A DNA stretch of 64,000 nucleotides, from NCBI GenBank assembly GCA_964035545.1, contig OZ037772.1:11039818-11103817 (forward strand). The letters run 5' to 3'. The stretch's first letter is position 1. The number at the start of each line of letters is the position of its first letter. Below the pieces are notes generated by a model. It did no database searches and was not told where the DNA came from. It saw only the letters and a program-made list of their open reading frames with translations. Positions 6,501 through 64,000 of the stretch are shown here, piece by piece. The translations under genes and the position numbers were made by a program. The DNA comes from Bugula neritina. Taxonomy: Eukaryota; Bryozoa; Gymnolaemata; Cheilostomatida; Bugulidae.

Positions 6501-8378
6501 TTTTCAAGAAATTATTGGTTTCATGAAAAACTTGTTTGACAATGTTATGGAAAATACATGAAGCAGCTGATGGTTCTGTGGTGAATTAATATGATACCAT
6601 TCAAATGTATTTTAGGGAATTATTGGCTCGATGAGAAAGCAGGGCAAACCACTTGGAGTTGGTAAAAGATTTGGTAGTTTTCTGTTGCCAATGTACCTGA
6701 TAGTCAAGTTGCTGTATATTGCTAATGCTATTGGACTCATCTTCCTTATGGATAAGTTCCTCGGTGAGTATATCTTTTGTCACTACATCTGCACAGTGGG
6801 GATAGGCTGGTGCTTGCAGGTGTAAAACTGACACACTATACTCTCTAATATAGGCACAACTATTCTAGTAAATTCTATAGCATAAAGAATGTAGTAGTAC
6901 CATGCTAACATATATAATTTTAGCAGCAGACACCTGTTAGTAGCTGTCAATAACATGTCTGACTGCTAAACTTTGTAGGAATTGACTTTGTCAACTATGG
7001 CTCCGATATCGTCAAGAGTGTACAAGACTCGGACTATAAAATGCCGTCCAGGTTTCCCTATGTGACTCTCTGTGACTTCTTCATCAGACGTACGGGACAC
7101 AACGTGCAGAGATATACGATACACTGCGTCCTACCCGCCAACATATTCAATGAGAAGGTGGGCAAAGTTTATGTGATGAATCTTCACTGTATCTTGTGTT
7201 ATCATGCCACACATGCACAGCCTTTTGAATATCTTATTTTGTATATGTTATTTTAACTTCTAGCAGACGAGATGTAACTACCTTGTGGTAAATATAGATT
7301 TCTAGACTTGGAGTTGTCTGTACTTTGACTAATGGCTGTTTTATTCCAGTGTTTTATGTTCCTGTGGTTCTGGTTGGTGTTTGTGGCTGCTGCCAGTACT
7401 ATTGGTCTCATACTCTGGCTGTTTACTGCCTGCTCTGGTGTGAATATGAGCTTCACTAAGAAGTACCTGGGTATCATGGGGCGTCTGGACAACAGTGAGT
7501 AACTCTTCTATTAGTAGACAATGGTAAGTAAGTATTTTATTTTTAAGTAAATATTCTGCTATAGTAGGCAATAGTAAGTTAGTTCTTCTATTAATAGACA
7601 ATATCTAGTAAGTAACTCTTCTGGTAGTGACCATGTTGTAAGCTTTATATCTATTTCACATATAAAATCCAGACAAGTAAATTTAGTCTGCGATATAATA
7701 TAGATACTGATATTTATTATGTATTATATGTCTTTGCACTTAGACTGAGATCAATATTACTTTCTAACAGGAGATCGGGATACTGACCACCTGCTCCACA
7801 GCTTTGTCCATGAATATCTCCGCCAGGATGGCATCTTCTGCATGAGACTGGTTATAAAGAACACCAATGATGCCATAGGTATGTGACATGTTTGTGACTT
7901 GAAAGTGATATGTACTGACAAATAGTGAGATGCTAGTGACATGGTAGTGACATGTAGTGACATCGTAGTGACATGTAGTGACATGCGAAATGGTAGTGAC
8001 ATGTGACAGGGTAGTGACATGTGATGTAATATTGACATGTAGTGACATCGTAGTGACATGTAGTGACATGCGAAATGGTAGTGACATGTGACAGGGTAGT
8101 GACATGTAGTGACATGTGACATGGTAGTGACAGGTAGTTACAGGTGGTGACAAGTAGTGACAGGTAGTGACAGATAGTGACAGGTAGTGACAGATAGTGA
8201 CAGGTAGTGATATGTGATGTGGTAGTAACCAATACACTGTCTACTATGTGCAGGAGGAGAAATCTTTGCTGCCTGTTGGGATCACTTTCTACTCACACGG
8301 AAACCTCCGCCAACGTTTGAGCCGTACTCAAGTCCGACAAAGCTGTTGAGACAAAGTAAGATAGAGCAAGCTCTGTAA
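540..8378 (+). CDS. inx: Innexin (gap-junction channel protein), 5'-truncated by the window
   Basis: Innexins form gap junctions and hemichannels in invertebrate plasma membranes, with four membrane spans and two extracellular loops. Exons read: 540-661, 1675-1834, 6015-6184, 6616-6763, 6979-7157, 7350-7494, 7771-7878 and 8254-8378 (TAA). All junctions keep frame and give 384 residues of the C-terminal part; roughly 40 N-terminal residues are missing to the left. The first exon has GMRAYVGEAIVCF, matching the family signature YVGxPIxC at the end of the first membrane span. Each extracellular loop shows its two expected cysteines (VCF and MCW; TLCDF and IHCVLP). EKTVRY-like DKTVRYLV and the NIFNEKV motif are also family-typical. 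The 4.2 kb intron 1835-6014 holds a transposon. The exon ending at 7494 has a multiplied splice donor. The gene converges on PBX-B. Confidence 0.93.
1012..1500. repeat. 28-bp minisatellite of TAGAGTATA type in an innexin intron
   Basis: Low-complexity array of TAGAGTATA/TAGAATATA words. At about 1300-1480 it becomes regular with a 28-bp period (AGTATAAAGTG recurs every 28 bases, about six units). The same vocabulary recurs at 20837-21280, and on the opposite strand at 56440-56700. Confidence 0.85.
3130..4650 (-). pseudogene. Decayed ORF of a repetitive invertebrate protein family, inside the TIR element
   Basis: Read on the minus strand, frames broken by stops and shifts give, in order: RTAKLWAM and GNWALHLA-like pieces (about 4650-4400), GIWSDMTIE with FGHSKG (about 4300-4230), KDRESVKRKIE..NDPLK (about 4080-4020), a retroelement insertion, then LPPTDEAIGQCHQ and a frame-shifted HLQVAIW-like piece (about 3340-3280). 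From memory, this order of motifs occurs in a large family of uncharacterised, high-copy proteins in marine invertebrate genomes; I could not check this. The middle of the expected protein is missing. It is not a functional gene. Confidence 0.5.
3650..4012 (-). pseudogene. Fragment of a non-LTR retrotransposon reverse-transcriptase C-terminus
   Basis: The minus strand encodes NATEMRMLRKIYNMNWEDHV, followed with frame breaks by MRRRPLQ, MKIQRKRGGPK, MDTVKDGL and RWRSLI-like segments. This is the familiar tail of the polymerase of endonuclease-type non-LTR retrotransposons (AEMRMLRxxxxxxxxD, then RGRPKxRWxD, then DRxRWRxL). It is nested in the older ORF at 3130-4650 and heavily degraded. Confidence 0.7.
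7487..7629 (+). repeat. Innexin exon-f splice donor tandemly multiplied (4 units)
   Basis: The real border is GACAACA|GTGAGTAACTC (donor at 7495). The same block recurs three times downstream, as GACAATG|GTAAGT (7524), GGCAATA|GTAAGT (7574) and GACAATATCTA|GTAAGT (7608), each followed by CTTCTATTAGTA-like sequence. Every copy keeps a consensus-like donor. Reading past the first donor meets an in-frame TAA at once, so the later donors would give truncated products. Confidence 0.85.
7905..8225 (+). repeat. TAGTGACATG / TAGTGACAGG array in the last innexin intron
   Basis: About 30 imperfect 10- to 17-bp units built on GTAGTGACATG, changing to GTAGTGACAGG after about 8130. It begins some 30 bases after the donor ATAG|GTATGTGACATG, which resembles its unit. 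Open frames on the minus strand here are translations of the repeat. Confidence 0.9.
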
Positions 8379-9398
8379 CTTGCATCAGTTACTCATCTAG
8401 CTGCTCATTGGCTGGTTTGAGTCGGCTCAGTTTCTTAGCCTGAGTTCTGAAAGTGACCACCACTTTGACTATCAACATAATGTTAAATGAACATTTCTCT
8501 TACATCTGTTCCATTGAGTGTGCATATTAATAAAATTGCTATATATGTAAGTTATTAATATTCTTTCAATCTTTGCAACTTTCTATCATTTCAATGCAAA
8601 TTTTATTTTATTATGTAGCAGCGAATTTTCTGTTACCATCAGTTTTTCAAGCTAAGCGTATATATATACATTTATACTTGACTTTTCCATATATCAAATA
8701 ATATTGTTTTCCAATGTTGTATTAAAATATATTCAGTGATTATATAATATTCAGTGCAACAATACATTTTTAGTCACAAGAGACTTTACAGCTTTTTGTA
8801 ACAGGCATATGATATGATGAGGTGGTTAGGGATGACATGATCACTATGTTGGTGAAAGCTATCAATAGCTGTAATTCTAAAAGCTATCATGATCCTTTAA
8901 TTCTGGTCCAAATGAAGTGAAATTTTTTATACAAATGATGGTAGTATTATCTGTAAGCCAAGTCTCTGATTATGTAACCAAAGTTTTAACACAAAATCTG
9001 CGGGTTGAAAATGCCACAATAACATAGTATTATAACTTTCATGGGTGAAGGCATGCAAACAATATTTTATTGACTTATTACTAATCTAAAAGCATACATC
9101 ATAGATAATATTAACCAAACAGTTATTGCTTTTCTTTGGTAACAAATTATGGTATCAGTGTATGAGCACACATATTATATCACCAGTGTTACTCTCTTAG
9201 CATTTAATAAAAGACATATGAGGAGTTGCTTAACCCTTCACCATAACTATATTTGAACAATTAAACATTATAACATATATATTCCAATACTACAATAACG
9301 TAAGATAAAAGAAAATACTTGAGTATTTATATTATATGTATGTTACTACGAAACTGTTGTGTAAGAGCATGAATCAATGCCAGGAAATTCCTTGAATG
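8379..9398. other. Convergent intergenic region between innexin and PBX-B
   Basis: Holds the 3' untranslated regions of two converging genes. A likely innexin poly(A) signal AATAAA is at 8529-8534. On the minus strand AATAAA at 9066-9071 could serve PBX-B. Nothing else is recognisable. Confidence 0.5.
8529..8534 (+). terminator. Candidate poly(A) signal of innexin
   Basis: AATAAA about 150 bases after the innexin stop codon. Only the hexamer supports it. Confidence 0.4.
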
Positions 9399-12300
9399 TT
9401 ATTGGATGACTTCTTTCTTGCTAGTCAAATCAGCTGGCTCCACATATTCACCTGGACTAGTGGAACTGTATCGCCCTTCCTCATCAGTTCTCTGTTATAT
9501 AGAGAAAATATATTTATATTTGATTGGTTATCACTTGGAAAGCTAGAAAATTTAGCTGAAACTATAATATTAACAGACAAAGCTGTTTCGAGACATAAAA
9601 TTATCCCCCTTGAAAACTATGTCAAATCATATATGATAAACATTAAGTAGATGAGGATCAAACTATGCGCTTAACTCTAGAAATATTATAGAGTAAAAAT
9701 TTCCAGAATTTTCCACCAGGTTTTCAACTTCCTAAAACACAAAATTCAACACATTGCTAGTTTCAAACTTTATTTAAAGCAATATTAGCATATAGTTTAG
9801 AATTAAGCATTAAGATATTAAATAAAAACTAACATTATGTAAGACATAAAGTTATAATAATATCACTTTATTCTATGAAGTATCAAGTACAACACTCACT
9901 CTCTGCTCAGCCATCAACTGATACATCTCCTGTGGGTTGTATCCTCCAGATGCCTGAGATATTATGTCATGTCTCATTGATGCAGTACAGAGCGCCTCAT
10001 CTGATGCCCCTAAATCAGATGTGAGCTGATATGGTGAACTTAGACCAACATGGGCTTTTATAATAATATGGCTAGTAGCTTAACTAAGTATGCCAAGTGA
10101 ATGAGTCATGTTAATTTTTGAGGTAGAAACTGAAGAATTAAACAAATTTTGCTGCTGCTGATTGCAGTATATAGAAGGTAAACTAGAATTCAAGAAAAAA
10201 AAAGATTTTTATATTTTATTTAAAAAAACATTAGCATCAGCTAAGTTAAAAGTCTATAATTTCTTATACAGTTTGAATTCTGCTGAAAACAAACAAAAAA
10301 TTTTGCTCGCAATTGTCAAATAAAATATAATATATTTTTCACAGTTGCATAGGACACATTGTATGTAGCTATTTGTAGCTGGATTTTGAGATGGGAATAA
10401 ATCCCTAGCTGGAGTTAAGTTAGCATTGAAGCTTTACTTACTAGCAAAGCTTGATAAGTTTACTTTAGAAGTTTAGTTGACAACTTTCAATTTCTTATCG
10501 CATGTATTTAAAGCAGTTCTAAATAACAATTGTTTTTGCTGATTAAGCTGCAATCAATGTAATACACAGTTAAAGGGATAGTTATATTTTTAAACAGTTA
10601 TTAGGAAATTTTTTAATTTTTGAATGTTGAAGATATATTAAAGAACAAACACTGAATCAGCTCACCAGACAAAGACTTAGCACCATAAAATGTTGCCTCA
10701 TTTCTTGCTTTGATCTCATTTTTCTTGTTTCGTATTCTTTTGTTGCCAAACCAGTTAGATACCTGAAGAGATCATTGTATTGCCAAATGTTAAAAGCATT
10801 AGGTATACACTCTAATGTACTAATGGAAATGCATTGCATTGCTAAATATGACCAGAATTAACTTTATACTCATAGACAAAACTAAAATAGTCAACTTTCA
10901 ATTATGTAATACGCATTCATTTATTTTATATCAGTATGTATTATGAAGAAAACGTACACGACTCAACGCAGAAATAATTTCTATATAATTATGTAATCAT
11001 ACTTTGTTGAAAACATTTAATAATGTAAGTAGGTATAGAATATTAGACTATAGTTACTTTTACTTCTGGTTCAGATAATAGGGGAGGGGGACTTATAGAA
11101 AATACCCCACCCTACCTGAGAGACTGAGATGTTACAAGACTTGGCCAGCTCCAGCTTAGCATCCTCTGATGGGTACTGTCTCTGAGCGTTAGAGTAGAAG
11201 TAAGTGTTCAACTTCTCCGTCGCTTGTCTCGAAAAGTTTCGTTTTCTCGGCCTAAAATTCGATAATTTAGAAACAATGCAAAATAGCAATATTTTGCCTT
11301 AACAATTGAAAGTACTTTTATAGCATTGATTTAGATAGTATTACTATAGTCCTTTAATGGTAATAAAAGCAAATAGCGGGAATTTAACCGTGCGTCAAGA
11401 AATTCGTTCCTCAGTCTCATTACAGAGTCACAGGTATCTTTTTTCAACAAGTGCTCAACTTTGGAAAATTCTCCTTCAATTCTGGCAACTTGACTGTCTA
11501 TCTCAGTTTGATTGATTGGTCGGATGGTGCTCTGGCGCGACAGCACTTTGAGGGCGTGGCCAGTAAACTCTGAGCATGCCTGGAAGGTACATCCTGAACT
11601 TAGGAACATTAGCTTTAAGCATCTCCAAAGATTAGAGTAGGTATGCTATTTTAATGTCTATGTAAGCTTTCATGTAATACTTGTATTTGCTTATATTTGT
11701 CACACTATGTTATAGTAAATATATGTACACTCACCTGTTTATAATGTCACATCATGTAGCAATTATGTACACTCACCTGTTCATACTGTCACATTATATA
11801 GTGAATATGTACACTCACCTGTTTATACTTGTCACACTCTTGGTGGTAGATAGTTCTAATCTGCGCCAACTTGTTCTTATATTCAGCATGTTCTAAATAA
11901 TATGTTAAGTCTGTATTGCAAAATATTTCAAGAAATATTGTTATTATCTTATATTACGTTATTCTACATCATATGACTTTCTGTAATTAAGAAATGTTGA
12001 AGTATATATTAATTTTCATTATAATTATTATGAAATATCATACTGCTTTAATTTATATTTTGCCATATTGTATATTATTGTTATATTATATTGTGTTATT
12101 CTACAATATGGTTATTTATCTTATATTATACTACAATATATTGTATTATATTATACTAAACTATACATTTATTATATTTGCTATTCAATTACTGGGGCAT
12201 AGAACTTATAAAACTGAGATGTGAATATCAGGTATTTTAGAAACTGTATGCTATGTACAAGCTCACCATCAAAACCACCTGCTGAGGACGTGTCATGGAA

Positions 12301-12507
12301 GTCAATAGGAGGACCAGTGACACTCTCAGTCTGTAGAATGTTATCTAGTGTACTCAACTTGCTCTCCAGGGGTGTAGCTGAGCTGGTGTCATTTTTCAGG
12401 GGGTTGTCTGATTCTACGGAGATACATATAAATGACTAGTGGACTATAAATAATTAGTTTATATCATATAATATCAGTATAATATTAGTTTATATATATA
12501 TATATAC

Positions 12508-12566
<59 letters not shown>

Positions 12567-12814
12567 TAGATAGATAGATAGATAGATAGTGAAGAGGATA
12601 TTAGATATGTGACTGAGTTAAAAATAGTGGGGAAGAGAAAGAGAGGACGACCCAAACGAAGATGGATGGACACGATAGGAGATAACATGAAGCGGTGGGG
12701 CCTTAAACCAGAGAATGCAGAAGACCGGGAAAGATGGCAGACGCTGATAGAGATTGGAAACCCGCAGACCGGTCACTCGTACAGGACTACGACCGTATAG
12801 GTGTGAAAGGTGTG

Positions 12815-12880
<66 letters not shown>

Positions 12881-12900
12881 ATATATATACATATATATAC

Positions 12901-12996
<96 letters not shown>

Positions 12997-14841: not shown

Positions 14842-15861
14842 AGAGTTATAGTTATAATATAACTTGTATTGATTCCTTTTATATACTTATGAGTACAATT
14901 AAAGCATATTGCATATAGTGCTGACAGAGACATAGCTATGGTGTTATTTATGGTATTTCAAGGGAACCTATTTGCTTTATATAGAATTAGGTTAGATATT
15001 TGAATCTGAAGTGAAAGTTAAATTATCTGTAGTGGACCAATTATTAATTTGTCACACTTTAATATACAGCTACTTGCTTTAGTTTTCTATGCGACGAATT
15101 ACCAGATTATTTTTTTAATAAAATTGTCAGTACAAGATGTCTTGCCACATTAAAGCTTGGTATGATGCCAAAATGAATGTATTTTGACCACAGCTACAAG
15201 AAATGCATTAAAATCTAATTACATTGTATTTTAGTATAGAATAATTTTATAAAATATGCATGTAAATAGTATATGGAAACAGGGTTATATAATAGAATTA
15301 GACAATTCATAGTACATTGTAAAATATTATAATAGCATAAAGCACTGTATAAAAACACATCAAAAATGAGTTGCAAATGAAAAGACTTCTACATTCAGGA
15401 CTAGATTTGTCTTCCCCTAATATTCCTAAATTACACAATAGCTTAATTACAAACGTATAATACAAGTTGGTTTCACAAAATAATAGATATCATGAGCTGA
15501 TATCTAAAGGAAGTGGTTTTGGCCAGTAGTAATATAATTAATGATAATAGTAACCCTGCTAAAACTCATCATGAAAACTAAAATTCACAATTTAAAAAAT
15601 ACTCAACAGGTCAAGAAGTATACACTTTTAGTAAATGAGGGCTCGCCAACCAATCAAATCAATGTATTATATGATAAAAATAAATCGACTGTAAAATATG
15701 AAAACACGAAACAAGTTTCCAATGACAACAAGTAACAACTTTCTGGCTATAACTAATGAATTCAAATAACCTAACAGAGTATCCGTTATCGATTCATTTC
15801 TCTTCTATTGGAGAAATTCTAATCCTGCACTTAGTAAATAATAGACGTAGACAAGTGAGTC

Positions 15862-15955
15862 AAAATGTGACAGGTGAGTCACAGTACGACAGGTGAGTCA
15901 CAGTGTGACAGGTGTGTCACAGTGTGACAGGTGTGTCACACTGTGACAGAAGATC
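15862..15955. repeat. 19-bp TGACAGGTGAGTCACAG tandem repeat
   Basis: About five units of GACAGGTGAGTCACAGTGT, just downstream of the PBX-A stop codon. Each unit carries TGACAG, the core half-site of Meis/Prep TALE proteins. Confidence 0.85.
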
Positions 15956-16021
15956 ATCGTAGACTGAGAATTCCTGGATGAGTCAGACCTTTAGTCAAGC
16001 GCTAAGAGCTTATTGGATGAC

Positions 16022-19000
16022 CTATTTCTTGTTAGACAAATCATCTGGCTCTTTATAGATGCCAGGACTGCTGTATCTTCGGACATCCTCAGCTCTCTGT
16101 AACATAAACATAAAGTATAGCTGACAATCAAATTGCTCAACCAATAAAAAACTTGCGTTGAATATTTGATTCGTAGAAAATTATCTGCAGTTATTCATAG
16201 TCAAGGTACACAGAACTATAAATAAAAAGCAATTTCAGCACAAAAAATACATAATTATAAAATAACTATGCTACATAAATCACTATGAATTACCAGAAAA
16301 AATCTTTAAACTTTTTGCTGATCCAAAAGGTTTTATCTATTTAGCTTTTGTGCATTAAAAAGTAAATTTTATAATAAAGAACAGCAAAACAGCCTTTGTA
16401 CTATGAAAAAGGAAAAAAAATTCACTATGCAGACTGGAATGAGTAACTCTCGGGGTTTTCTAATGATACTCAACATATTAAGTGGAAGAAGAGAGATTTA
16501 AGACATTACAATACTATGACAAGGAAACAAAGTTTAGAAAGCAGACGGAGTTTGTTAACCTTTAAACAGTGCATGATGAGACAACTCCAATTTTCAATTA
16601 CATTTTTTAAATGATATTCACCAACTGTAACCAGTTTATTTTATGAAACACACATTTTAACACATGTCAAATGCTTTAAAGCAATTAGCATAAAGTTTAA
16701 AACTTAACTAGTATACTGTTGAAGATCACCAATAAAAACTGGCATTATGTAAGACATAAAGTTATAATAATATCACTTCATTTTATGAAACATCAAATAC
16801 AACACTCACTCTCTGCTCAGCCATCAACTGATACATCTCCTGAGGGTTGTATCCTCCAGCTGCCTGAGATATTATGTGTCTCATTGACGCTGTTGAGTTC
16901 TGAATGTTAGCAGCTACCTGATCAGCGGGGAACGCCCCCTCAGACGCCCCCAAACCAGACATGAACTGCCCAGGAGAAGTAAGGTTAGGAGCATTCATGG
17001 AATACGCTACAAAATACCAACATATTCTCAAGTTATAGAAAACTATACTTCAATGAACTAATAATAATTAGTAAATATTCTAAATATATTAAATTTCAAA
17101 AAATTAAAGTTAATGACTGACTGAGTGCCTATTTTGTTCCAATCTAGCTATTTTTCTTTTAAAATATTATTTTATATAAACTTATAACTATGTCATTAAA
17201 GTAAAAACTATAATTTAAAATAAATTCACAGCTCTCAAAGTATACAATTGAATTACAAACCAATCGGATCAGAAGATGATAAAATAAACAATCTAAAGAA
17301 AGTGTACAGATGCTGAAGGATGTGCAGAATGTAGGCTAAATGTCCCATACTTACGGGGCACTCTAGACGCCTCTCTCCCAGCTGCTTTAGCCGCATACAT
17401 GTTAGCTTCCTCTTGCGCTTTACCGATATTTTTCTTATATCGGATTCTCTTGTTACCGAACCAATTGGAAACCTGCGTCAGACATACATTGTAACTAATC
17501 AAGTATAACATACACATTATATACAATAATTTATGTGATATATATATATAATACAGCATACAGACAGACTACAAGCTACACCACACTATTTTGAAGTTGC
17601 CCGCTTACCTGAGAGACTGAGATATTACACGATTTAGCCAACTCCTCTTTGGCCTCCTCCGAAGGGTAGGGATTGTTGATGTGAGAATAAAAGTATTCAT
17701 TTAGTCTTTCAGTCGCCTGCTTCGTAAAGTTCCTTCTTTTTCGTCTACAAACATGTCACGGCATTTGAAAGAAATGTGACTGGTAAAAGAAACACTAAAC
17801 AACAGATACACTTTACACAAATTAAACAATACAGGAAGTAGAGAGCAGACAGGAAGTAGCGCGTAGACAGGAAGTAAAAAGGAAGTAGAGAGGACAAATC
17901 CAAACCTAGCATCAAGGAACCGGCTCCTTAGGATCATGACAGCCTCACACGTACTCTGCTTTAATTGCATTTCAATGGACGAGAAATTCTTTTTGATAAT
18001 CATAACCATGCGTTCCATCTCGGTCTTGGCGACGGGTCGGGTACGTCCCTGCTCCCGCAACAGTTGGGTCACATGACTAGTGAACTCTGAACATGCCTGA
18101 AACACAAACACACATAACTTTGGTAAAGAAATCCTTGCTTATTTACTTTAATTGTAACCACGTAGCCAATATAAAGTTTCTGCAGTTTATCCTTTACCAT
18201 AATGTTATAGAAAATACTTGCAACTTGATCAACATTTTCATCCAATTTGCAAATAAATTCATATTTGTCACACTGTGTAGTGAATATGTACACTCACCTG
18301 TTCATACTGTGACACTATATAGTAAATATGTACTCACCTGTTCATACTGTGACACTATATAGTAAATATGTACTCACCTGTTCATGCTGCGACACTATAT
18401 AGTAAATATGTACTCACCTGTTCATACTGTCACACTATATAGTAAATATGTACACACTCACCTGTTCATACTTGTCAAACTCTTGATGGTAAATAGTTCT
18501 AATCTGCGCCAACTTGTTCTTATAATCAGCATGTTCTAAAGTGTAATTATTCAGCATTATTAAAACACATTAAAAATTAACAATTTTAAAATGAAATGTC
18601 CATGTGTCGCCACTGCTTGATAAGGTGACACGATCATCTACAGCAGGGCCAATTCCAGACACCAACATGAAAGTAGAACTCAACCATGCTATGCTATGGA
18701 AAGCTACCAAACCCTTATAATCATTATATAAAACAATATTGAAATACAGTTGAAATACTATTCACTTAGGACAAATGATAATTTAAAGTTGTTTTACTAT
18801 GAAAGAGAGAAAAAATGAGGGGATAACTACGAAATAAAAGAACAGATTTACAAAAATTAAAGTGTTGTAAATATTGTACTTGTTTATTACCAATAATGAA
18901 CATGTAAACAGTGACTTACACTACTATACTGTACATCCATGTAAACATTGACCTACACTGTTGTACTGTACATCCATGTAAATAGTGACCTACTAAAAAC

Positions 19001-26367: not shown

Positions 26368-29300
26368 ATGTTTTCTGGATTAGATGACGATGACGATGAC
26401 TTTTCCCTTGGCAAACCTATAAAGTCTGCTTTCAGGTCAGTGAAATCAGCTCAACCATATCAGAATAAAAACTTTTGTTTTATTGCTCAATGATAGCATA
26501 ATTATTTTTAAAATTAACTAGTTACTAAAATTGTTTGTTTGTATATCATTGTATATAATTAGGGAGTCTGGGCTAGGAAGTATTTCAATAATAATTTAAA
26601 TACTTTTTGTCTCATTATAGAGAGTTGATGCATGTTAAGTGCATGTTGTACTATACATCCATATAATATGGCTAATGTTGGGATATCTAATAATGTTAAT
26701 ATGTAAAATGCTGATTTCATATAATTTAATAAAGCTGCTGTATAATGGAATAAATATAGCAATGCTAATATAAATTTATTACTAGATATGTTGTTAATAG
26801 TTCTTATGTTTATTAAAAAGTAAAAGTTTTCAATTATAATTGTAACATAGCTAGTAGGATTAGAACTGCTACAATCTCAGTGTAACAACTGGGTTATCTC
26901 CTTATATTAAATATAGCAGCAATGAAGGATCCAACTTGGCTAGTCTGTTTGGAGGAGGAGCGTCTAACAACCCCTCGCAGTCTCTGACATACACAGCCCC
27001 AAAACAACCACGCAAGAACACCATCACATCTGCAGGTACTTTGCTTGTATTACTTTAAATAGAGATACTGAGTAGTTGTGTCTTACATGTCTTACATTAG
27101 ACTATGGTGAATCTCACGTCAATTGGGAGTTGTCTCACCAGTTCCTTATTAAATATAATGGGTATAAACTTGCATTTCTCTGACTCACTACTGAATAGAA
27201 TTTTTTTCATTTTATATGTATATAGTTTATTTAATTCATGGCTTTATTTTCTAGAATTTTCTACAATATTTTGCAGTTTCCATGAGATCCTTTCAGATTA
27301 AAAATTACATTCTTTCTGCATTTATTGACTGTAAAATATTTTTTCTGTTACTCATATGTGTTGAATTGTTTCAAGATGATGGAAAGAAGAAAGGTGCTGC
27401 CGTTGCATCCACCGTGCTGCAAGCGGCAGCGGTGCACTGCTACAAGCTGATTGGTGGACAGTACGAGAACGTGGGGAAAGTTGGTGCAGCTCTCCTAGGA
27501 GCTGGACAGTCATCTGCAGAGGTGTGTTTAGATCTGATTCATAGCATATAGTATGCTATCCTCACCTATTTCTCTATTGTCCTGTTTGGGTAGCCGGTTA
27601 TGTTATCTAATATATATTATGTATAATAATATATTTATAACATATATTACTACTCACATTGCATCTTATAGTAATTTATATTATATAGTATATAATATAT
27701 ATTAATATTATTATTAGTATTAATATAGATTTATAATATATGTATAATAACATTATTATGGCATAAATTTTATTAGGAACTGTAGACTGGAATGATTATG
27801 ATGTCCTTTTCTATCTACTTCCTTTATTCAGGCAGAGTTTGCGATAATGAGTTTTGCAAATTTAATCTTTCGTAGTTTTCATGCATTTTATATTATTCCA
27901 CAGTATAATATAATAATACATATCATATTACTCCACTGTATAATATAATAATATATTTCATATTACTCTACAGTATAATATAATAATATATTTCATGTTA
28001 CTTTACAGTATAATATAATAATATATTTCATATTACAGTATAGAATACTGCTGTACGTGACCCAGCAGAAACCCGTTGCTAATGCCACTGTAGCAAAAGG
28101 TTTCAAGTTTGAAGTCCTGCCCAGCCGATACGCCAGGTTCTACGACGATTCACAAACACTCTACAGCATCGTCTTTGACAAACAGGAAGTGCTGGACAAG
28201 TTCTCTAAGCAGGTGCTCTAAAGCCTCTCTCTGATACTCAATTTCCTGTATTTCATAGCTATCATTGTATAACATCTCAAGAATGTTTATAATATAACGT
28301 ATTCAATGGCTAGAGTTACCAAAATTTGAATACTTAGCATATTATACATTATATATTCAACTAGACTCATTAAATACTTAGCATGTGTTCCTACAGGTTC
28401 TGTTGGCCGTTAGTCATGTCTCCCACCCTTTAGCTGAAGTTCTCATCCAAGATATGCAAATTGGGGAGGGCAGTGATACACTGCAAGATGGTGACGCGGC
28501 TGAATTAAAGTACACAGGCTGGTTATTGTCTGCTGGCCAACTTACACAGGTATAGAATTGTCCTCTCCTTTTATGCTGTTTCCAGTAACATTACTCAGTT
28601 GTCTCTTTGTGCTTATCAAGTCTTTATGTTCTGAGCCTGCTGCTGCCATATTTTCTATGTCAGTGTTGAAGAATCCCTGACACACTTCATTTAGGCAGTA
28701 TTAAAGTATTTACATATATCTTAGCTATTATCTACATACTGAGGGTTGTATGCTCAAACAATTTCGTTGTTTATACGACCACAGACCTCAGAGCCGACTG
28801 AAAACATCATCAGCAAACAATCAGAAGTCCCAAATTAATTCAGAACATGTTTACACAAAATTTATTATATAAAACAATATTGTTTAAACATACAACCCTC
28901 AAAGAGTCTGTAGATGATAGCTAAGATATATATGAATATTTTAATACTGCATAAATTAAGTGGGTCAGGCTCGTCATATTGATTGAAGTTGATTTGTACA
29001 ACTACTGGTTGTAGGTGATAGATAGCAACATGGACAAGAATAAGACATTTGCTCTGAGGTTAGGTAAAGGGAAAGTAATCAAAGGATGGGAACAAGGTAA
29101 GTTTAATCTTTCTCTATTGTGGTATTTAAGTTGTCTCCCCTGATGTGACATCCTTTTTAAATTTTATTGTAATGCATGTTCTGTGATAGTATATCATATT
29201 GTGGTATTATGATACTATAATATATTATAATCTATAATATGATATTATAACATATATTATTATATTATGATTCTATAACATTGTATTATAATTCTATATT

Positions 29301-32300: not shown

Positions 32301-35300
32301 ACAGCAACTTCTTCAACAGCAACAGCAGCTGCTGTCCCAGCACTCTGCAACCCCTCAGATGTGGGGTCAGAGCCCCCTAGCAGGTAGGTTTACAGATTGT
32401 ATCTCACAAAGTGTAGTAACATCTGTATAAGCAGAAAAGATGAAAAGCTTTTTCAAATGTTTGTGTTGTACCACTTTTTTAATTGTATGTTTTGGAGTGG
32501 AATTTCTAAACATTCAAACTTTCAAGAAACAGTTACTAATGAGTAAAAGCTGAGTGTTTCCAAATGAAATTGAATTTGTTCTGACATTTTTATTAAATTA
32601 GGTTGCTAGCATTGTTTCAGCGGAAATATTACATTTAGTCACGTTGATTAATGTATTATCTAATCTATAATTGAGTTATTTTTAGTAATCTTCAAACGCT
32701 TTAAATTATTTATTTTATATATCAAATGCCATGTTGGCCCTCAAAAATTTAAATTAAACTTCAAAGATTTTCTGAGTGAAATGAATATTTACAGTTTAAC
32801 TCTAAGTTACAGAAAACGTTTAGTAGACCACACTTATCTTACCTTGCTGTTAGCAGGTATGAATCAGCCAATGGCATCGGCTCCAAGCAGAGGTCCAATG
32901 TCTGCAGATACTGGAACAGCGGACAACTCCCATACGTCTGGGGAAATCACTAGAAAACTGGACAACATATCGCAGCAGGTAAAACTGGCTGTACTCAAGG
33001 ATCTTACATTGTTATAAGTTCATTAAAATGCACTTTGTATGTGCAAGAGCTATGTGTTGAATGTCGGGATAAAAGCTATGCAGCCTTTTTAACTTGTTAG
33101 TTTGATGATAGATCACATTACTTAACTTAGTACACACGCGATATCTCTAGTTTTAACTATTTTTCACAATTTAACTGCCAATGTATATGGATTTCTGACC
33201 TAAATTAATAAATATTATAAACAAATACAACTAGGTACCCAGCCAGGTAGCTATTTTTTGATTTTGTTTAATTTTCTATGTTTTTCATAACTTTTTAGGG
33301 AATTGGGATATACGGACCGTAATGAAAAACTAAATATGACAATGATGTTGTGCTTTACTGTTACAGGACCCCCCTCCCAGCCTTTTTTGCTATGCATAGT
33401 TAGAATCAGCGCATAAAATAACCTTACACAGTTCATTTTCATGAACTTTGGTTTGTGGCCCTACCTTGCTAATGTGTACCAAATGCAGTAAAATAACCCA
33501 TATATAACATCATTCTCTACGTCAGATTGAACGACTACAGACGACTCCAAACAATATTCCCACTATAGAGACAAGAGTTCTGTTAGAGAATCTAACCAGA
33601 ATAATAAAAGACAGCGAGAGACTCAAGACGGAAATAACAGAGAAGTCTAAGAAGATAGAAGAGCAGAATGTGAAGATATCCAGTTTATTAGAAGACAATC
33701 AAAGGTGGGAGGTTATGTTTGACGTGTTACTATTCAGCTGTAATTCTAGGCCGTGTTGCTAGGTAAATGTGTGTTACCATTCAGCTGTAATACTAGAAGC
33801 TGTTAAATTGAAGTAATGCACTTATATGAATCTAGTGTAATATGAGACAGCTTCACAAATATATATTCTGTACCTAATTAGCTGTCTGTATCTCACATGA
33901 AACGAGAAACAGTAAAACTGGAATTTCACAAATTTAGGTTTGGTTTCTAAAACACATAACTTTTGGTTCGAACGTTTGAGTTTCGTATCTAATACACACA
34001 GGCGAACTCAGAACAAGCTTCAATCACACAAAATTTTCTCACTCGCCTACCTTTCTTTTAACGAACTATGTGCAGTATTCAATATTCAGGTTTATACTGT
34101 ATTCAGTACTCAGGTTTATACTGTACTCAGGTTTATACTGTATTCAGTACTCAGGGTTATACTGTATTCAGTACTCAGGTTTATACTGTACTCAGGTTTA
34201 TACTGTATTCAGTACTCAGGTTTATACTGTATCTAGTACACAGGGTTATGCTTTATTCATAGGCATGTAGAACAAAGTAACAACATTCTGGAACAGAGGA
34301 ATGACTCATACAAGCATACAGCCAATCAGAGTCAGAGTAAAATACTACAGTTAGAGGAGGAGAAGGTAGGCAATATTACTGTAGCTAATAGGGAGGAGGG
34401 GTAGCATCCCTCTGTGACTGATCTATAACAGTTCTAAGTCTACACTCTCTATCTTTTAGTATTTATTAATCTTTCTTTTAGATTTTTATATTAGTGAAGT
34501 TGTCTTCTCCTCAAGTTGCATTTTGGTGAAAGTTAAAGCTCTGCATATAAATATTACTTTCTATCAGCCTTCTCTATTTGCAGTTTCTTTAAATATGTTT
34601 CAGCAAGCATTTAGGTGTCTTTGAGTTGTAATTTTCAAATAGAATAATTTCTCAGAAATTACGTTGCAGTATATTTTAAAGCTGTATTTCAGTAGTTATG
34701 TCCCCTGATCAGGGCAGAGTTTGTTTCAAGTCATGTTAATATTCAGAGACAGTTAAATCAAGTAATGACTTGACTGACAAGTTTTTGTTAGAGTACTACT
34801 TGGTATAGTCAAGTTGAATGCACTATAAGTTAGTTACGTAAATATCTATTAATCTATGTGGTTATGACTAATGAGAGTTGTCCTTTCAATAGATGTTTAG
34901 TAATACTAGAGTTATCCTCTTTCTAGAATGAGTTGAGCAGTAAATTGAGTACAGTAATGTCTCAACTTACATCGGCACAGTTGGCAGTATCTGAACTGAG
35001 GAAAACTGAAATAGAGCTCAGGGATGAAGTCACCAGCCTAGCAGGTTAGCTTGTTTCTGCTCTTGTGAAGGAGGAAGGAAAATGTTTTGTTTGGAATTAT
35101 TTGCTTGTTTAGCATAAAATGGTAAATCTGAATCTTTTTCCTCATAAACAGAAGTTGTTAGTAACGGCTCTAAACTATTGGCTATTGAGAGAGTTGCTAT
35201 AGTAACATCGGATAGCATTTGGCAGGAGAAATATATGCAGTAACAATTATTCTAGCAGCTCAGTTATTTATTCTGTTGGTACAAATTCATGTGAACATAT

Positions 35301-41300: not shown

Positions 41301-44300
41301 TGTAGTGCTCTGGGAATGTTGTGTGTTTCCTTTAGCCCGAAGTAGCGTTGGAAAATGTTCAATGCTCTTCTTAATGAAATTTCTACACCTGTATACACCA
41401 CCTGGATATAATACAAGCTTTTGATCTGACATATCTATTGTTTATGTAGTTCCAAAATGTGCTTAGTTTTGCCCACCAATTCACCCTTGTCTAGTTATTT
41501 TATCATGTGCTTAGAATTTAGGGCTATACAGTTTGTTAAAGTTGTTGTACTGAACAGTTAGAAGATCACTACACTGTGGCATCCTATATCTTACTCTCAA
41601 GTAATTGTGGCAGAATACTTTTTCTCAAATAACTTTGCGAGTTATTATCTAATGTTTGCTATATTCACAAATAATAACTATTGTGCCATGATACAGATTT
41701 AAAATATGATATATTTATGCAAACTGCACATGAGTAAGTAGAACAACAAATAGTTTTTGAAATACAGCTCAGTACTTTGATGAAATTTCGTAAGAAATGG
41801 TGTAACTGTAATAGCTAGTATGCCAGCTGCTGCCAGTTTTACTAGAACTTGTTATAGATGGCAGCGCACAGTGAATATACAGGTTCTGGTGTTAAAGCTG
41901 TACTGTATGTATGCTTAAAGAACCAATTGATGATTCCTAGGTAACGGAGTTGGAAGAGGAACTGGAAATAAAGTGGAAATCCAAGATGGCGGATGCATTG
42001 TCTGCTGCAAATAAAGAGAAGGATAAGTTAGTAGGTGAAGTGAGAGAAGAAAAGGAAGTTATTAAGAGTCAAGCATTGAAGTTGAAGGAAAAAGTAATTA
42101 CTTCCTTATTATTCATTTCTCAATTTAAATGAAAATACTTTTAAATTTAATTGTGTTGAGAAATTGGAGTGAAAAGTAACTATTTTGATGTGAATGAATT
42201 TACTAGAGACACTGTATGGTTGGTTGCTATGTTTAGCTTGTGGCACTGAAAGAATTGTATGACGAGAAGTTAGAGGAGCTTCAGTCAAGTCAGGAGGAGG
42301 TGGAGGACCTCTCGCAGTGGAAAGAGAAGGTGGGTTGGACTCCAGGCTAATCATTTTCATTACAAGAAATTTTAAAGTTTTTTTTTGCTTTTTGTTTTTT
42401 TTGTACTGTTTGATGCTCTGAGTTATTATATAATGTATTTTATATTATTTGAAGCCCGAGTTATTATATAATGTAGTTTATATTGTTTGATGCTCTGAGT
42501 TATTATATAATGTAGTTTGAGAAGCTGAAAGAATATACAAAGTCGATGAAGGAGAACTATGATGGGGAAGTGGACGAGTTGGAAGAAATGATAACAAATA
42601 TAAAGCAGAAGGTAAGATATCATTCTCTCGCTCAGTTACTCTCTATTTTAATCACTCACTCACTCACTCACTCACTTACTCACTTACTCACTCACTCACT
42701 CACTCACTTACTCACTCACTCACTCACTTACTTACTTACTCACTCACTCACTCACTCACTTACTCACTCACTTACTCACTCACTCACTCACTCACTCACT
42801 CACTTACTCACTCACTCACTCACGTAGTCAAGCAGTCTCATTCACACAGGAATTTACTTTTCAATTGTGAAATTATTTTGCAGTTAATATTTGCTTGTTT
42901 GCTCATCATGAGTTAGATACTAACTTTTACCAAGTCAATAGACTATTAAAATAGTTGGCGTTTAAATTACAGAAAAGTAGAATCATTTATTCATAAACCT
43001 GAATGGTTAGAGCAGGTATATCAGGTCATAGCTGCTTTAAATTAAACTTGAAATTTGTGTCACCCTTTATTTAGAAATGTGCATACAGTCACCATTAACC
43101 ACTTGCTACATTGTGCCCCTGCTTACTTTAACTTGGTAGATTAGTCTCTTCGTGAAACGTGGCCAAGAAAATTTATTTATCAGGACGTTTGAATAAAATA
43201 AAAAAATGTTCGTCAATTTTCCGGGGTTATATCTTCTATATCTGCCTGGTTAATTTTTTCATCTGTGATTGAAAAGCAAAAAATTTGATAAGGTGATATG
43301 CATGTGTCTTAGAATCTATTCCTAATACTATAATCTTATTGGTTGAAGTTTATATATAAACAACCTTGTTCACATGTACGCATGTGTTTATGTTGTAGAC
43401 TAGAGTCGTCTTCTCTACTTTATCTGGATTATTTGATTCGAATGAAAACTACAGAGGCGCTGACGTCTGCAAGGCCATTAGTGCTACAATCAAGGTTTGT
43501 ACTTTTATTATACCATACGGAGTTGTTCACTCGATAAAAGCTCTGTAGTTTTCCATATTCATATAATATTATCTAGCCTATCTGACAAAAAATATCCAAA
43601 TTGTTTTGAAGTAATCCACTCTTTAGATAGCTAATTTTTTAAAACTATACTTTAATATCATGCTGGAAAAACTAGGTAAAAGTTTCTGTTCTCTACTGTG
43701 CATTTAAAACCTGTTGTGTGGTCCTGTAAATAGTTTGTTCATGGCATGAGAGTTGTCTTCTATCTATGAACTTAAACGATGGCCATAGGTTTGCTAGTCT
43801 TAATAAAGGCCTTTACCTTAGTAGTTTTATATACATTAAATAACTATGTTTATAAGTAAGTTATATGTAGATACATAGCTAGACGTAGAATGATTTATAT
43901 TATATTATGTTCCCATAGTATGCATTAAAGTGGGTATACACTTTACTCATTATCCTGGTAAAAATGTCATCTTATATTTTACATTCTTGAATGGTTGTTT
44001 TTTCTGCCAATAAAGTTATAAATTACAGGCTGATATTTGCTAGCAATCAAAATTTTGTTCAACTACTGCAGCTGGGTTCTTGAATATTCAACTGTGGTAT
44101 GTATTGTATTGGTAGGGACAAAAAGCACCATCTTTTCAGCCACTACAGTCACAGGTGGTAGAGGACAAAGTGTCTACTAAAACAGAAGTCCTAGCACAAC
44201 CGGAGGTTGCTTACAAACTGGGAGAAAATGGTATAGAAAATGTACCAAAAGAATCGGAGGTGGATCCAGAAGTTGCTCATAAATTGGGGGACAAAGGTAT

Positions 44301-46550: not shown

Positions 46551-47598
46551 TCAAGCAGCTGTTTTCCTCTTTTTAGCTTTCTGTCTTTCTTCAGTTTTTT
46601 CTTTAGCCTGAAAGAGTATTAAACTGTAGAAAATAACCAATCACATGACACGAGAGAATATCAAACTGTACAAAGTAACCAATCGGATGACATGAGAGAA
46701 TAGCAAACTGTTCATAATCAGTAACCCAACATCCTTGCAAAATCTTTGTGCAGGTGAAGCAGTAAATCTATGCACACACAGCCGTGGCATTATAATACTA
46801 GTAGATCATTTACAGACATAGTGTTGAGAATTAAAAGACTGATGTCTACTGCAGATTGCAGTGAATAAACAATGTTTACTGCAGATTACTACTAACCTCG
46901 GCCACAATATCTACCAGCTTTCCTTCAGATGCTAAAGTTTTGAGTAACTCGACGATGAAAGGCAGATAGTTGTGCCTCCTTCTGATGTTCTCAGTCTATA
47001 AAGTATCGTAGACTACTCAAAATGTGTGAGATAAACAGACAATGAACTTCAAATCTTCATCATGAAGCTTACAATTTATAAAATCTTGACAAGAAGCAAA
47101 TGAACATTGAACCCAGGTTTACACAACAAAAACACTCTCAAACACAGCAGGTATAGTTCAGCAGTTTGAGAAGTTACAACAGAAAAAAGAGGGCTGCAGT
47201 AACTGTGAACACTGAATCACTGTTTACTCTGACAATGTGAGTCTCCACGTACCTTAAACTTTTCACGCTTGGCTCTCTCGGCGCTCACTGTGTCGAGAAG
47301 TTCTTTTACTTCCTCACTCTCATCAGTCATTCCCGCCTACGAGCATCCAATGTAAATGTTAGAGTACATTACAAGACGATATGATATCATGATATATCAT
47401 ATCCAGCAGGTGTGAGCTTACTAGATTCTAGGACTGCTACTATTACTACCAGTATTACTACTAGTACTAGTAGTAGTACTGGTAGTAGTAGTACTACTAC
47501 TAGTAGCACTACAATTGCTACTGCTACTACTATGACTACTACTGCTGCTGCTGCTGCTACTAGTACTGCCACTACTACCACTACCACTACCACTACCA

Positions 47599-47662
<64 letters not shown>

Positions 47663-52099: not shown

Positions 52100-55000
52100 A
52101 TGTCTGGAAACTCTGAGCTTAGACAGCTTCTTCAGAGAGAAAGATTTGCGGAAGAGGTTAGTTAACAGTGCAACTGCTAGACTTGACTTTGACATGTTAT
52201 GTTGTGACGCTGGAGCTATAGTTTCCTTAAGTTTTCAGGCATTGCTGGGATGGAAAAAAAGAGTTCTTCATAACATGATTTGTCTCTAGAAATATTGTCG
52301 TTTTAGTCTAAATGTTTACTGTTCAGATAATTCTTTCTTCACAGTTAAAGAGTTAAAAGTTTTCATTTTTAGCTTTTTTGTAAGCAAAGAGAAATTCACA
52401 AAGATAAAAATTAAATTTTTTTACACTCTCAAAAACTTTTGTAATACTACGAGTAACTCATAAAGTATTAGCTATATTCCATGAAGATCCAATCATCTAT
52501 ATACAAGATGTTTATAACTGTGCAAGACACTACTTCAATTGAGCCTTGAAACACAAATATGTAAATTTTTGTTTTAAAAATAGTCAGACTATTTTAGTAA
52601 TTAGAAAAGTGAAGTTAGTTTCACTTCTATTGTTACGGAACCTGTTATATGTCTGATGTTGGCGTTTTAAGCTCTGTTGTAACTAGCAGTAGCCAAGTCC
52701 TAGGATACAAAGCGCTTTTTATACATACTAAAGTTGATTAGTTATTCTCCAAGGTATAGCCTGACAGTTACAAGTTCTGTGGCCCTTTTTACTTGTTTCT
52801 GATTGCGGTGAGACATCTCTGTGGACTGTAAGCTAATTCTGTGTTTGTAGCCTATGAACTTGTATACTGTTTGTAGCCTGATAAAGATGGGTTCAGTGGG
52901 GACCCAGCTCAGTCTCACATAACTGATGTACAAGACCCGGGGCAATATCAACAGCAACTCCCTAACTCTTCCACGCATTCCAAGTTTGATGATAGTTACA
53001 CAGTCACTTCCTCTTTTCCTGCAGACGGCAAGAATGTTCCGGACCTGTCGGAGTTCTCTAACTCCTCATCTAATAATATGCAATGTGAGTTTTCATACTA
53101 ATAAACCCTTTTTAGAGATCCGCGATATTTCTTTTACAATTAGGAGTTGTGTCCTCCCGATGTGACTAGGTTGAACCTACTAAAAATATCCAATGTGAGT
53201 TTTCATACCAAATATTTATTTATTCCTACTCCTTAATAAATAATTTCAATTTGAGAAGACATGAAATTAGTTTCTGCTGAACTTCAACCTATTTTTTTCT
53301 CCTCAATGTGAGGTTTATTCATTTTACTTGAAAATATTGCAAATTTTGGTTGTCAACCACAAGACTCGAATTTGGCTTGAAGCTAATAGTAAGCTACTTG
53401 TTGTTCATGTGCAATGTTCAGATTTCTGGTTAACTAGAGTTACACGCTTGTATAAAGTTAATTGTACCACAATGAATTGCCTTTAATTTCTATTAATCTT
53501 TCTACTCTGGATTACTGTCAGCTAAATGATTAAATGAAATGGATGTTGCACCAGTAATCTTGTAGTGGATGGCATTATCTTTTGTTAAATTATTTCTCTC
53601 TGTGTTTTGGAAGAGGCTGATACTATATTTTACAAAAACGTGAGAATGGCACCAGGTTTTGTGGTGATTCAAATTATAATTTATTTTCTAAGTCAGCTCC
53701 TCAATGTGGATTTTTAAGATTTACTTGAAAGACTAAATCACTACTTGATATCTAGTAATCTTACTGAACACACATTGACCATATCAGCGAGAATACATAA
53801 AGACTAATTGTTTCAGCCCTAGATTACATAAAGACTAACTGTTTCAGCCCTAGCTGGATTGGATATGCTCTCTAACCTGGACAACACATCTTGGCTGTCT
53901 TCCTCGATGGGTGATGACTTTGACCTTGGTGTGGCAGCGTTAGTGCAGGCTGCCGATCAGTTTCCTTTCTCCAACCTCAACATGGATGAGTTCACTGAGC
54001 AGGTGTTACAGTCGGAGGTTGATGGCCAGGTATACATGTATATACTGTAGAGTGTAGATATACTGTATATACTGTAGAGTGTAGATATACTGTAGAGTGT
54101 AGATATGTGTTGTATGTGCTCTATGTGTATAAACATGTACTGTAGGCTACTGTTAGTGTGTATTTCTATATGTATGCATTGTCAACCCTGACAGATGCTT
54201 GCCTCTCTCTATACATGTGTTCTGTAAATATATAAATGTGTGTGTGTACTTCATATGCACTTTATGTGTATATATATATTTACTGTATGTGTATAAATAT
54301 GTACTGTAGGTATATATAATATGTACTGTAGGTGCATATAATATGTACTGTCAGTGTGTATTACTCTGTTATATCTCTATACAGGAAGTCAGCAGTTGGG
54401 CAGAGCAGACTTTATTAGACGAGTTCTCTCAGTCTAAGTCCGTACCATCCCAGTCTGGTGATGCTAAATTCGCTGGCTATGGTAGGACATAGTAATATCT
54501 TCTCTTCGTTTGAAAGTCCTTCTATTTTGTTTTGTAAAGATTTTTGACCACTTCAGAATTACCACCATTTATTTCTTGTAAATATCAATAAATTTCTCAT
54601 GAAAAGCGTTATTTGAACACATTACATAAGGTTCGGTGAAATTGTATATATATGAGTGCATTGGCAACATAAATTTCATAAGAGAGGATGTAAAAGGTGT
54701 TACATGAATTTGCTGTGTGGGGTGAGGTGATTCCATTTTAGGCATTTTTGTCTTTCTACATCACATGATATGTTTTCATGGTGCGCAGAACGTTATGCGG
54801 GTTACAATCATTAGGTTTTCAGTTTTATATTCATGTATGAGATTTGTGAGTGGTCTTCGGCCATTAAACAGTGTCATGGTCTCCCCCTCCCCCTTATTCT
54901 CCTATAAATGACACATTGCTATCTCCTGCATGTTGTGTGATTCAATATTGGTAGGAAGTGGCTATTCGGAGTTGTCTCAACCGAAGTCTAGCTGTTGCCC

Positions 55001-62222: not shown

Positions 62223-64000
62223 ATGGAATCCGCCAGTTCAAAAAAGAACAAAAAGCTCACAGGTATAACTGTAACACCTCTGCTCTGAGGCATAAGGGGC
62301 TAAAGTCAACTCTTGGAGTTAATAGATCAGTGTGTGCCGTATACCTGTGTTTTGGTTTGAAAACTTCTCTGCTGATTTATACTTCTTGCTGGCATAGGTT
62401 TATGGGCCATAAATTAATTGGAGAACTGGTGAATGCGTGTAATAAAGTGTTTTAGGGATGAAAAGCAGATAGCATATCCATGATCTATCTCCGCCTGTTT
62501 TGTTGTTTGTTTCATACTTGTGACATTAATGATTTAAGCTTCATCAAGTGTTTCAAACCTTAAAACTGAAGCAACTGTCGAGAATCTTGTAATTTTTTGC
62601 TATTTTTAAAGTAGTTATTTGTTACAGTTGAACTTTTCTAATTTAAAAGTTTATTTTGAATGCTTTCCAGTTTTGTAAAAACAATTACATCAAGTAGCCT
62701 GGGTGAGTATACAACAGATACAGCGTACTGGTGGGTACCATTTGCAGTGAGAATTGAACTAAACATGTTATTATCTCAATAGTAGGTATTATTTTTGCAA
62801 TATTCTATTATCCGTGAGTTACTATTTAATTCCTGTGATACTCCGTAGATCATGTGATGAATACTCTAGATATCTTACAGACGATCAACTGAAAGAGCTG
62901 ATTGACAAAGCTATGGGTATGAGAGAGAAGGCCTACTGTCCCTACAGCAAGTTTAGAGTTGGTGCAGCTCTTCTTACCCATAACAATCGCTTCTACACAG
63001 GTGAAGGGTTGTTATGAAGTACACTTGTAGCAGCCTTGTGGTATGAGTTGTAGTTGGTAAGGGTGTAATTAGTAAGGGGGTGTAGTTAGTAAAAGGATGT
63101 TGTTAGTAGGGGGTGTGGTTAGTAGGGGGTGTAGTTAGTAAGGGGTGTAGTTAGTAGGGGGTGTAGTCAGTAGGGGGCGTAATTAGTAAGGGGTGTAGTT
63201 AGTATGGGCTGTAGTTAGTAAGGGGTGTAGTTAGTAGAGGTGTAGTTGTTTGCATTAGGTTGGGGGATTAGTTTAGTCATTTTCTTCAGACCTTGATCAC
63301 TCACTGTGTATAAAGACTTGATTCAAAAGAGTTGGTTAAGTATGACGATGAAATGAAATTCCTTTACTCCAGGCTGCAACGTGGAGAATGCCTCTTACGG
63401 ACTGACTGTGTGTGCGGAGAGAGTTGCTATATACAACGCTGTTGCCGGGGGAGACACTGGAATCTCTGCTATGGCTGTGTGCTGGTGTGTACCTCTACAA
63501 TGTCATACTTAGCTTGATCATGATATAGCTCTGCAATGTCATACCTTGGTGTACCTTCACAATGTCATACCCAGCATACTCATGGTGCATCTCTGCAATG
63601 TAATGCCTATGGTGTATCTCTGCAATGTTACACTTAGCATACTCATGTACTCTGCTCACGCTGTGTTGTCTGGAATATTTCAGTGATATCAAAGGGAAGT
63701 TCCAAGGACCATGTGGAGCCTGTAGACAGGTCCTGGTGGAGGTAAGTATCTTGGCTTATTCTGCTGAATAATTTGCCCTTTTATTTATTTCAAAGGGCTT
63801 CAAAGCTGGAAAGTAGGTTGTTAGTTTTCATGTGGAATACAGATCTGTTAATGGCAATGTTTATGTCCAAACATCTATAATACATCTAAACTGTTGTAAC
63901 CTTTCATGGAGAATACATAGCGTATGTATAGATATGACAATGTTTAGTCTCCAAATCTGTAACACGTCTAGAGTTTTACCTCTGCTTGCAGTTTGGGGAG
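62223..64000 (+). CDS. CDA: Cytidine deaminase, 3'-truncated by the window
   Basis: Zinc enzyme of pyrimidine salvage that converts cytidine and deoxycytidine to uridine and deoxyuridine, normally a cytosolic tetramer. Exons: 62223-62262, 62881-63000, 63373-63484, 63684-63741, 63992 to the window edge; all phases agree (113 residues seen, of about 145 usual). MESASSKKNKKLT leads into DDQLKELIDKA, then AYCPYSKFRVGAALL, the substrate-binding N-terminal part. GLTVCAERVA supplies zinc ligand Cys67 and catalytic Glu69. GPCGACRQVL supplies Cys101 and Cys104. These equal Cys65, Glu67, Cys99 and Cys102 of human CDA. The second exon was started at 62881 (TTACAG|AC) because only this acceptor restores frame with exon 1. 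The exon 3 donor is repeated in the intron. Confidence 0.95.
63060..63250. repeat. 16-bp GTAGTTAGTAAGGGGT repeat in CDA intron 2
   Basis: About eleven units of GTAGTTAGTARGGGGT, G-rich on the plus strand; GGGGG runs at several units. Confidence 0.92.
63478..63645 (+). repeat. CDA exon-3 donor multiplied in the intron (4 units)
   Basis: The real border TGCTG|GTGTGTACCTCTACAATGT is followed by three related blocks: TTGGTGTACCTTCACAATGT, ATGGTGCATCTCTGCAATGT and ATGGTGTATCTCTGCAATGT, spaced roughly 30-60 bases, with CATACTTAGC / CATACCCAGC between them. Each block begins at a (T)G|GTG resembling the donor. Confidence 0.72.

Follow-up and report, generated by a model that had tools for sequence, protein, structure and literature searches.

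This study analysed a 64-kb stretch of the genome of the bryozoan Bugula neritina (assembly GCA_964035545.1, contig OZ037772.1, positions 11,039,818 to 11,103,817; hereafter the window) and its minisatellites at exon borders. In these arrays, a short block made up of an exon end together with the 5' splice site (donor) is repeated in tandem in the adjoining intron. An earlier sequence-only reading of the window had claimed that blocks with a real donor are copied into the intron and that the real site is usually the outermost copy. This claim was borne out and recurs in searches of the whole assembly (215.8 Mb in 295 contigs), where donor-anchored arrays look like a genome-wide class present at several hundred places.

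Three copies in a row of a donor core were searched for, with gaps of 9-39 for CAGGTRAGT and 11-41 for GGTRAGT, and the reversed motif served as the control. The results revealed 5,227 GGTRAGT triples and only 508 triples of its reverse (single sites, 53,824 against 42,165) and 1,106 CAGGTRAGT triples against 10 (single sites, 6,654 against 1,700). A triple was headed by 9.7% of the GGTRAGT sites, compared with 1.2% for the reversed motif, and by 16.6% of the CAGGTRAGT sites, compared with 0.6%, which amounts to an 8- to 28-fold excess per site. In three sampled blocks, any 9-mer headed a triple at 0.5-1.2% of positions. Triple matches overlap inside arrays and are thus non-independent, so that P values at the level of sites have no meaning. 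The mutant core GGARAGT yielded 455 triples and its reverse 998, both being counts of triples only. The CAGGTRAGT share of the GGTRAGT triple matches (1,106 of 5,227, 21%) was near the level of ordinary donors (0.43 x 0.52). The acceptor-like motif TTTTCAG, a single motif that occurs in 6 of 241 modelled acceptors, exhibited no triple excess genome-wide (54 against 40 reversed), and the symmetry between donors and acceptors drawn in the sequence-only reading is overstated as far as tested.

The number of arrays was estimated in two ways. The whole of contig C1 held 16 CAGGTRAGT arrays (85 matches); extrapolation to the genome gives about 100 arrays when based on length and about 200 when based on matches. 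The first 100 of the 5,227 GGTRAGT matches comprised 13 arrays, which extrapolates by matches to about 680. On a rough estimate, perhaps 2-4% of strong GGTRAGT donors bear an array. The CAGGTRAGT arrays of C1 were bunched toward the contig ends, with 13 of the 16 lying within 5 Mb (P = 1.5e-5).

To relate the arrays to exons, we used a simple splice-aware gene finder trained on exons of the window, with 4 of the 39 training seeds left out for mismatch to the window. We fetched 29 arrays: the 19 CAGGTRAGT arrays met first along the genome (contigs C1 and C2), plus 10 additional arrays with GGTRAGT lying in the initial 2.5 Mb of C1. This sample is non-random, as the CAGGTRAGT arrays of C1 bunch near its ends. 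An array was termed anchored when the coding-exon score at its first copy was at least 8. Thirteen of the 19 CAGGTRAGT arrays and 9 of the 10 GGTRAGT arrays were anchored, giving 22 of 29 against 6.3 expected (P = 7e-10); the remaining seven were unanchored by this score. The threshold was reached by 21.6% of 1,059 other donor-like sites and by 95.4% of 240 modelled donors; this last figure is circular because those donors came from the same model. The 3' end of the exon was common to the inner copies over a median of 12.5 nucleotides (nt), and this sharing reached P < 0.05 for 16 of the 22 anchored arrays.

The exons at the fetched arrays are credible but verified only in part. Four of 10 peptides from the CAGGTRAGT set matched Pfam at E < 0.001 (SH3, myosin tail, MCM OB, and PFK; MCM OB and PFK fell short of the cut-off that Pfam itself sets), whereas six had no match, and one of nine peptides from the GGTRAGT set matched (caspase). 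The caspase and IP3-receptor exons matched homologues of solved structure up to the last or next-to-last residue. The exon at array L054, for which Pfam gave no match, is presumably monocarboxylate-transporter-like.

Within the window, the clearest donor arrays lie at exon 4 of two PBX paralogues, PBX-A and PBX-B, both named in the sequence-only reading. Three copies of CAG/GTGAGT (the slash marks the exon-intron junction) occur at the donor at 11819 and five at the donor at 18462, together with exon sequence. Each unit consists of the exon end (approximately 18 nt), the donor, and the intron start, the outermost of the copies being the donor of the exon itself. The two arrays had been presented as separate cases. 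Among codons for shared residues, synonymous differences between the paralogues numbered only 2 of 21 in exon 4, compared with 18 of 30, 17 of 31, and 11 of 21 in exons 5-7, and the array intron aligned above shuffles, whereas three other introns aligned no better than shuffles. This similarity suggests that exon 4 and its array are probably a single patch, common to both genes through gene conversion. Because they look like one shared patch, we counted the PBX arrays as one event and rejected their treatment as two independent cases. A second near-identical patch in the two genes (9821-9967 and 16731-16877, 138 of 147 nt) suggests patchy gene conversion. At 15850-15949, CAGGTGAGT copies form a 19-nt array on the + strand, which runs antisense to the PBX genes and lies off the modelled PBX splice sites.

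When PBX exons 4 and 5 were joined at the outermost donor, the PBC domain was unbroken (86 residues to 86 positions), and the myosin exons at array L033, joined in the same manner, aligned 75 to 75 residues with Myosin-10. This protein continuity supports the outermost donor as the one that is used in PBX and in one myosin gene.

We further analysed the state of the inner copies. Across 18 of the 19 CAGGTRAGT arrays (L038 gave no usable row in Tandem Repeats Finder, TRF), donor columns diverged less than other columns (4.7% against 8.6%), partly because the arrays were chosen for intact cores. When the 19 CAGGTRAGT arrays were pooled, 11 changes fell in the two GT columns and 29 in the other seven core columns, so that GT had no special protection in this set. 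The exon-derived half of the unit diverged by 4.2% against 9.6% in a first measure and by 3.9% against 6.0% when gaps were excluded and the outermost unit was dropped (Fisher P = 0.005, sign test P = 0.08); its conservation is suggestive only. The inner copies may be of recent origin, may have been homogenised from an outer copy under selection, or may themselves be selected; their state does not decide among these.

Our favoured explanation, which we regard as reasonably probable, is that the donor arrays are minisatellites of the type termed mirages in amphioxus, arising by tandem duplication across the exon-donor junction, expanded into the intron, and tolerated there. A short duplication, mostly of 15-45 nt, would first span the junction and later grow into the intron; the exon would still be defined by the outermost donor, the extra copies would land in the intron, and the protein would be unchanged. 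Because the extra copies would be intronic and the protein unaltered, the array would be free to grow, shrink, and homogenise. Each in-register contraction would leave the exon end and a donor, which may render such arrays unusually persistent.

The original account of an amphioxus mirage, that of Adh, reportedly appeared in Nucleic Acids Res. in 2002. The accessible portions of two papers describe mirages as minisatellite-like tandem duplications over intron-exon boundaries, with splice signals in the copies, in Adh3, the globins BflGb6 and BflGb9, and troponin C; normal splicing was reported as undisturbed, and similar imperfect duplications occur in lancelet PGBD5 (PMC3087553, PMC3902484). 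The arrays reported here fit this kind in that tandem repeats span the exon-intron boundary with exon sequence in the unit (PBX and 16 of the 22 anchored arrays) and in that the copies carry splice signals, independently in PBX and by choice of motif in the genome-wide set. According to the same portions, mirages are known from individual genes and affect donors as well as acceptors, whereas the class described here is genome-wide and donor-biased, with acceptor cases in the window but no TTTTCAG excess genome-wide. A trait of mirages is copy-number instability between haplotypes and in somatic tissue; the present data come from one assembly. The genome-level novelty claimed in the sequence-only reading is therefore overstated, as amphioxus mirages had already been described. 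What is new beyond mirages is the scale, the donor bias with controls, the anchoring of arrays chosen regardless of exons, and the shared PBX patch.

Several results weigh against the mirage explanation. Neutral tolerance alone leaves a donor excess of about 8-fold or greater over generic sites unexplained, because intron interiors should be tolerant too. Among the 22 anchored arrays, there were 6 whose first copy was outscored by a neighbouring site, mostly slightly (L031, L034, L036, and L040 in the CAGGTRAGT set; L049 and L050 in the GGTRAGT set, for which the comparison covered outer candidates only), and the outermost position is thus unproved for arrays taken singly. GT changes in inner copies numbered 2 of 406 in exon-anchored arrays and 11 of 196 in unanchored arrays, and this rarity in anchored arrays could mean selection on the inner copies. 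The unanchored array L029 seems to supply most of the 11 changes; several of its units read GGAGAGT, the GT having been lost in part of the array.

The remaining contrary results concern exon borders in general. Arrays were called with TRF, and a border was counted as touched when an array reached positions -3..+6 (9 nt). The curated set for the window comprised 69 exons and 134 borders (135 when the missing UCHL5 exon at 46607 is added), and comparison blocks totalling 250 kb were taken from C1 and C2, where exons under the score and gene-size cut-offs were removed (C1, from 167 to 155; C2, 22 retained of 22). Array coverage was lower at borders than in intron interiors, at 10 of 134 against 17-23 of 122-134 in the window, 2 of 306 against 11-17 of 280-306 in C1, and 1 of 43 against 1-3 of 41-43 in C2. 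The overlap comparison proposed in the sequence-only reading thus went against it. Copies of 24-nt border blocks were rarer than copies of interior blocks (none among 184 C1 donors at 17 of 24 nt), and generic donors outside the window rarely have such a copy. The coverage and border-block results speak against arrays being in excess at exon borders of every kind. We think that coverage is a misleading measure of anchoring at borders, since any array beginning at a border extends over the interior too, and we now consider counts of array edges and motif counts per site to be better measures. Donors were followed, within the first 20 bases of the intron, by 12 array edges against 3.1 expected from the interior density (P = 9e-5); seven of these were in the window, and the five outside compared with 2.0 expected (P = 0.05). 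The pile-up on the acceptor side was milder (8 within the first 20 bases, 1.66 per kb).

A functional role for the inner copies is the next explanation to be weighed. The extra perfect donors would recruit the U1 small nuclear ribonucleoprotein (U1 snRNP), strengthening exon recognition or protecting the transcript, and would be selected. The triple excess for the donor core and its absence for the GT-to-GA mutant are consistent with this role, as are the retention of the inner GT in anchored arrays and the lower divergence of core columns than of flanks. However, choosing arrays with three perfect cores itself lowers core divergence, GT changes as often as other core columns in the pooled CAGGTRAGT arrays, and the concentration of these arrays near the ends of C1 fits a mutational cause. 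We consider this role unlikely, although it deserves attention. The broader proposition, that several hundred donor-specific exon-anchored arrays have inner donors kept by selection or homogenisation and that batteries of U1 sites are general at intron 5' ends, is likewise doubtful.

Chance capture, in which common minisatellites sometimes include a border, agrees with the low coverage at borders and with the high content of tandem repeats (period of at least 8) in the window, 11% compared with approximately 3% of two other sampled blocks. When arrays were placed randomly in introns, with an earlier uncurated set of exons, 7 of 113 intron-flanking borders of the window were touched against 3.0 expected (P = 0.023); outside the window, overlap showed no excess over random placement (C1, 2 of 349 against 4.2; C2, 1 of 42 against 0.5). 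The excess of donor triples per site over the reversed motif and the anchoring of most fetched arrays argue against this explanation, which is hard to keep for donors and, as a general account, improbable. It is the likeliest explanation for the acceptor cases of the window.

We regard as very unlikely that the arrays are nascent introns that take their GT and AG from successive copies, as in the tandem-duplication model of intron gain. Since CAG directly precedes GT in the CAGGTRAGT units, each might act as acceptor and donor alike, and at L033, L035, and L037 the next exon lies approximately 60-80 nt after the last donor copy, as judged by eye. In the two PBX genes, however, 138 and 161 nt separate the array called by TRF from exon 5; in neither gene does the array supply the acceptor, nor do its copies provide both the GT and the AG of one intron. 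A further reading, in which the inner copies act as alternative donors and lengthen the protein by peptide units, is barely credible: the first extension past the outer donor was stop-free in 9 of 13 arrays and contained a stop in 4, but unit length was a multiple of 3 in only 6 of 13, which gives no sign of coding maintenance, the other 7 units would shift the frame, and domain continuity favours the outer donor.

Border repeats are known from other systems. Turri et al. (1995) reportedly described a minisatellite of human IFI6 (6-16) that provides multiple splice donors; to judge by its title, the unit contains a donor as here, at a single locus, unlike here. In human segmental duplications, internal tandem repeats at exon-intron boundaries alter introns (PMC2812944); these are border repeats as here but represent recent changes in paralogues that are able to form novel introns, and the accessible part of that paper describes no donor-specific class. 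In a potato RdRp gene, a tandem duplication across an intron-exon boundary, carrying splice signals, made a new intron (PMC4974935); as far as the accessible part of that paper relates, the border-crossing block resembles those found here, whereas the event was single and intron-creating, unlike here. Among the matches listed in the literature searched, which leaves out most subscription journals, no genome-wide account of donor-anchored arrays was found beyond the cited papers.

Hundreds of arrays of near-identical competing donors in a single genome would provide a natural experiment on the choice of a 5' splice site among equals and on the lengthening of introns without harm to the protein. 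Mirages would shift from a curiosity described gene by gene to a subject of quantitative study, including the question of whether donors are hot spots of duplication or merely tolerant sites.

The sequence-only reading had counted roughly ten affected borders among about 95. In the curated set, 10 of 134 borders were touched, or 11 of 135 with the UCHL5 exon. The touched donors were 661, 7878, 11819, 18462, 54029, and 63484, and the touched acceptors were 28039, 34263, 42516, and 53848, all four of which had been listed before, three of them in FKBP15. Positions -3..+6 were fully covered at four borders (both PBX donors, 42516, and 53848), and the remaining touched borders were reached by 2-5 nt. 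The array at 42516 has units that include the TTTGA-like exon start. For the donors of innexin exon f and CDA exon 3, the abutting arrays were confirmed but the expected donor-like content was poor; the arrays at 7878, 63484, and 54029 abut the border within 1-5 nt and share this poor content, and inspection of the innexin unit revealed no exon sequence. The donor at 53084, claimed as a further case, has one displaced copy 86 nt away and no tandem array. The description of UCHL5 exon 9 as a weaker case was fair. Pfam supported two PBX genes, an FKBP-domain gene, UCHL5 (peptidase C12), CDA, and innexin, and matched neither of two peptides of the gene at 52100 nor one innexin exon.

Table 1. Arrays and associated exons at splice borders in the window.
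Feature	Position	Strand	Basis
PBX-B exon 4 donor array, five CAG/GTGAGT copies about 40 nt apart	18258..18472	-	TRF and copy inspection
PBX-B exon 4 (PBC domain), donor at 18462	18462..18535	-	Gene model, Pfam
PBX-A exon 4 donor array, three CAG/GTGAGT copies, homologous to PBX-B array	11718..11836	-	TRF and alignment
PBX-A exon 4, donor at 11819; 69 of 74 nt same as PBX-B exon 4	11819..11892	-	Alignment, Pfam
37-nt array from 11 nt inside intron after PBX exon ending at 19005	18901..18993	-	TRF
FKBP15 35-nt array before exon acceptor at 28039	27885..28036	+	TRF; 4 of 9 border nt covered
FKBP15 array, TTCAG units, just 5' of exon at 34263	34075..34259	+	TRF; 3 of 9 border nt covered
FKBP15 38-39-nt array across acceptor of exon at 42516	42400..42518	+	TRF; 9 of 9 border nt covered
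42-nt array of TTTNTACAG-type units, stopping about 5 nt short of acceptor 46607 of UCHL5 last exon (exon 9)	46613..46718	-	Weak
31-nt duplication across acceptor of exon at 53848, gene at 52100	53790..53853	+	TRF; 9 of 9 border nt covered
Array adjoining donor at 54029 (weak donor content)	54031..54106	+	TRF
Lone displaced copy of donor block, exon ending at 53084	53183..53206	+	22 of 24 nt
62-nt array adjoining donor of CDA exon 3 ending at 63484; G/GTGTA repeated	63487..63647	+	TRF
GTGACATG-type array from intron base 5 after innexin exon f (ending at 7878)	7883..8226	+	TRF

Approximately 15 copies of a 66-bp repeat lie in frame inside the last FKBP15 exon (44203-45212).

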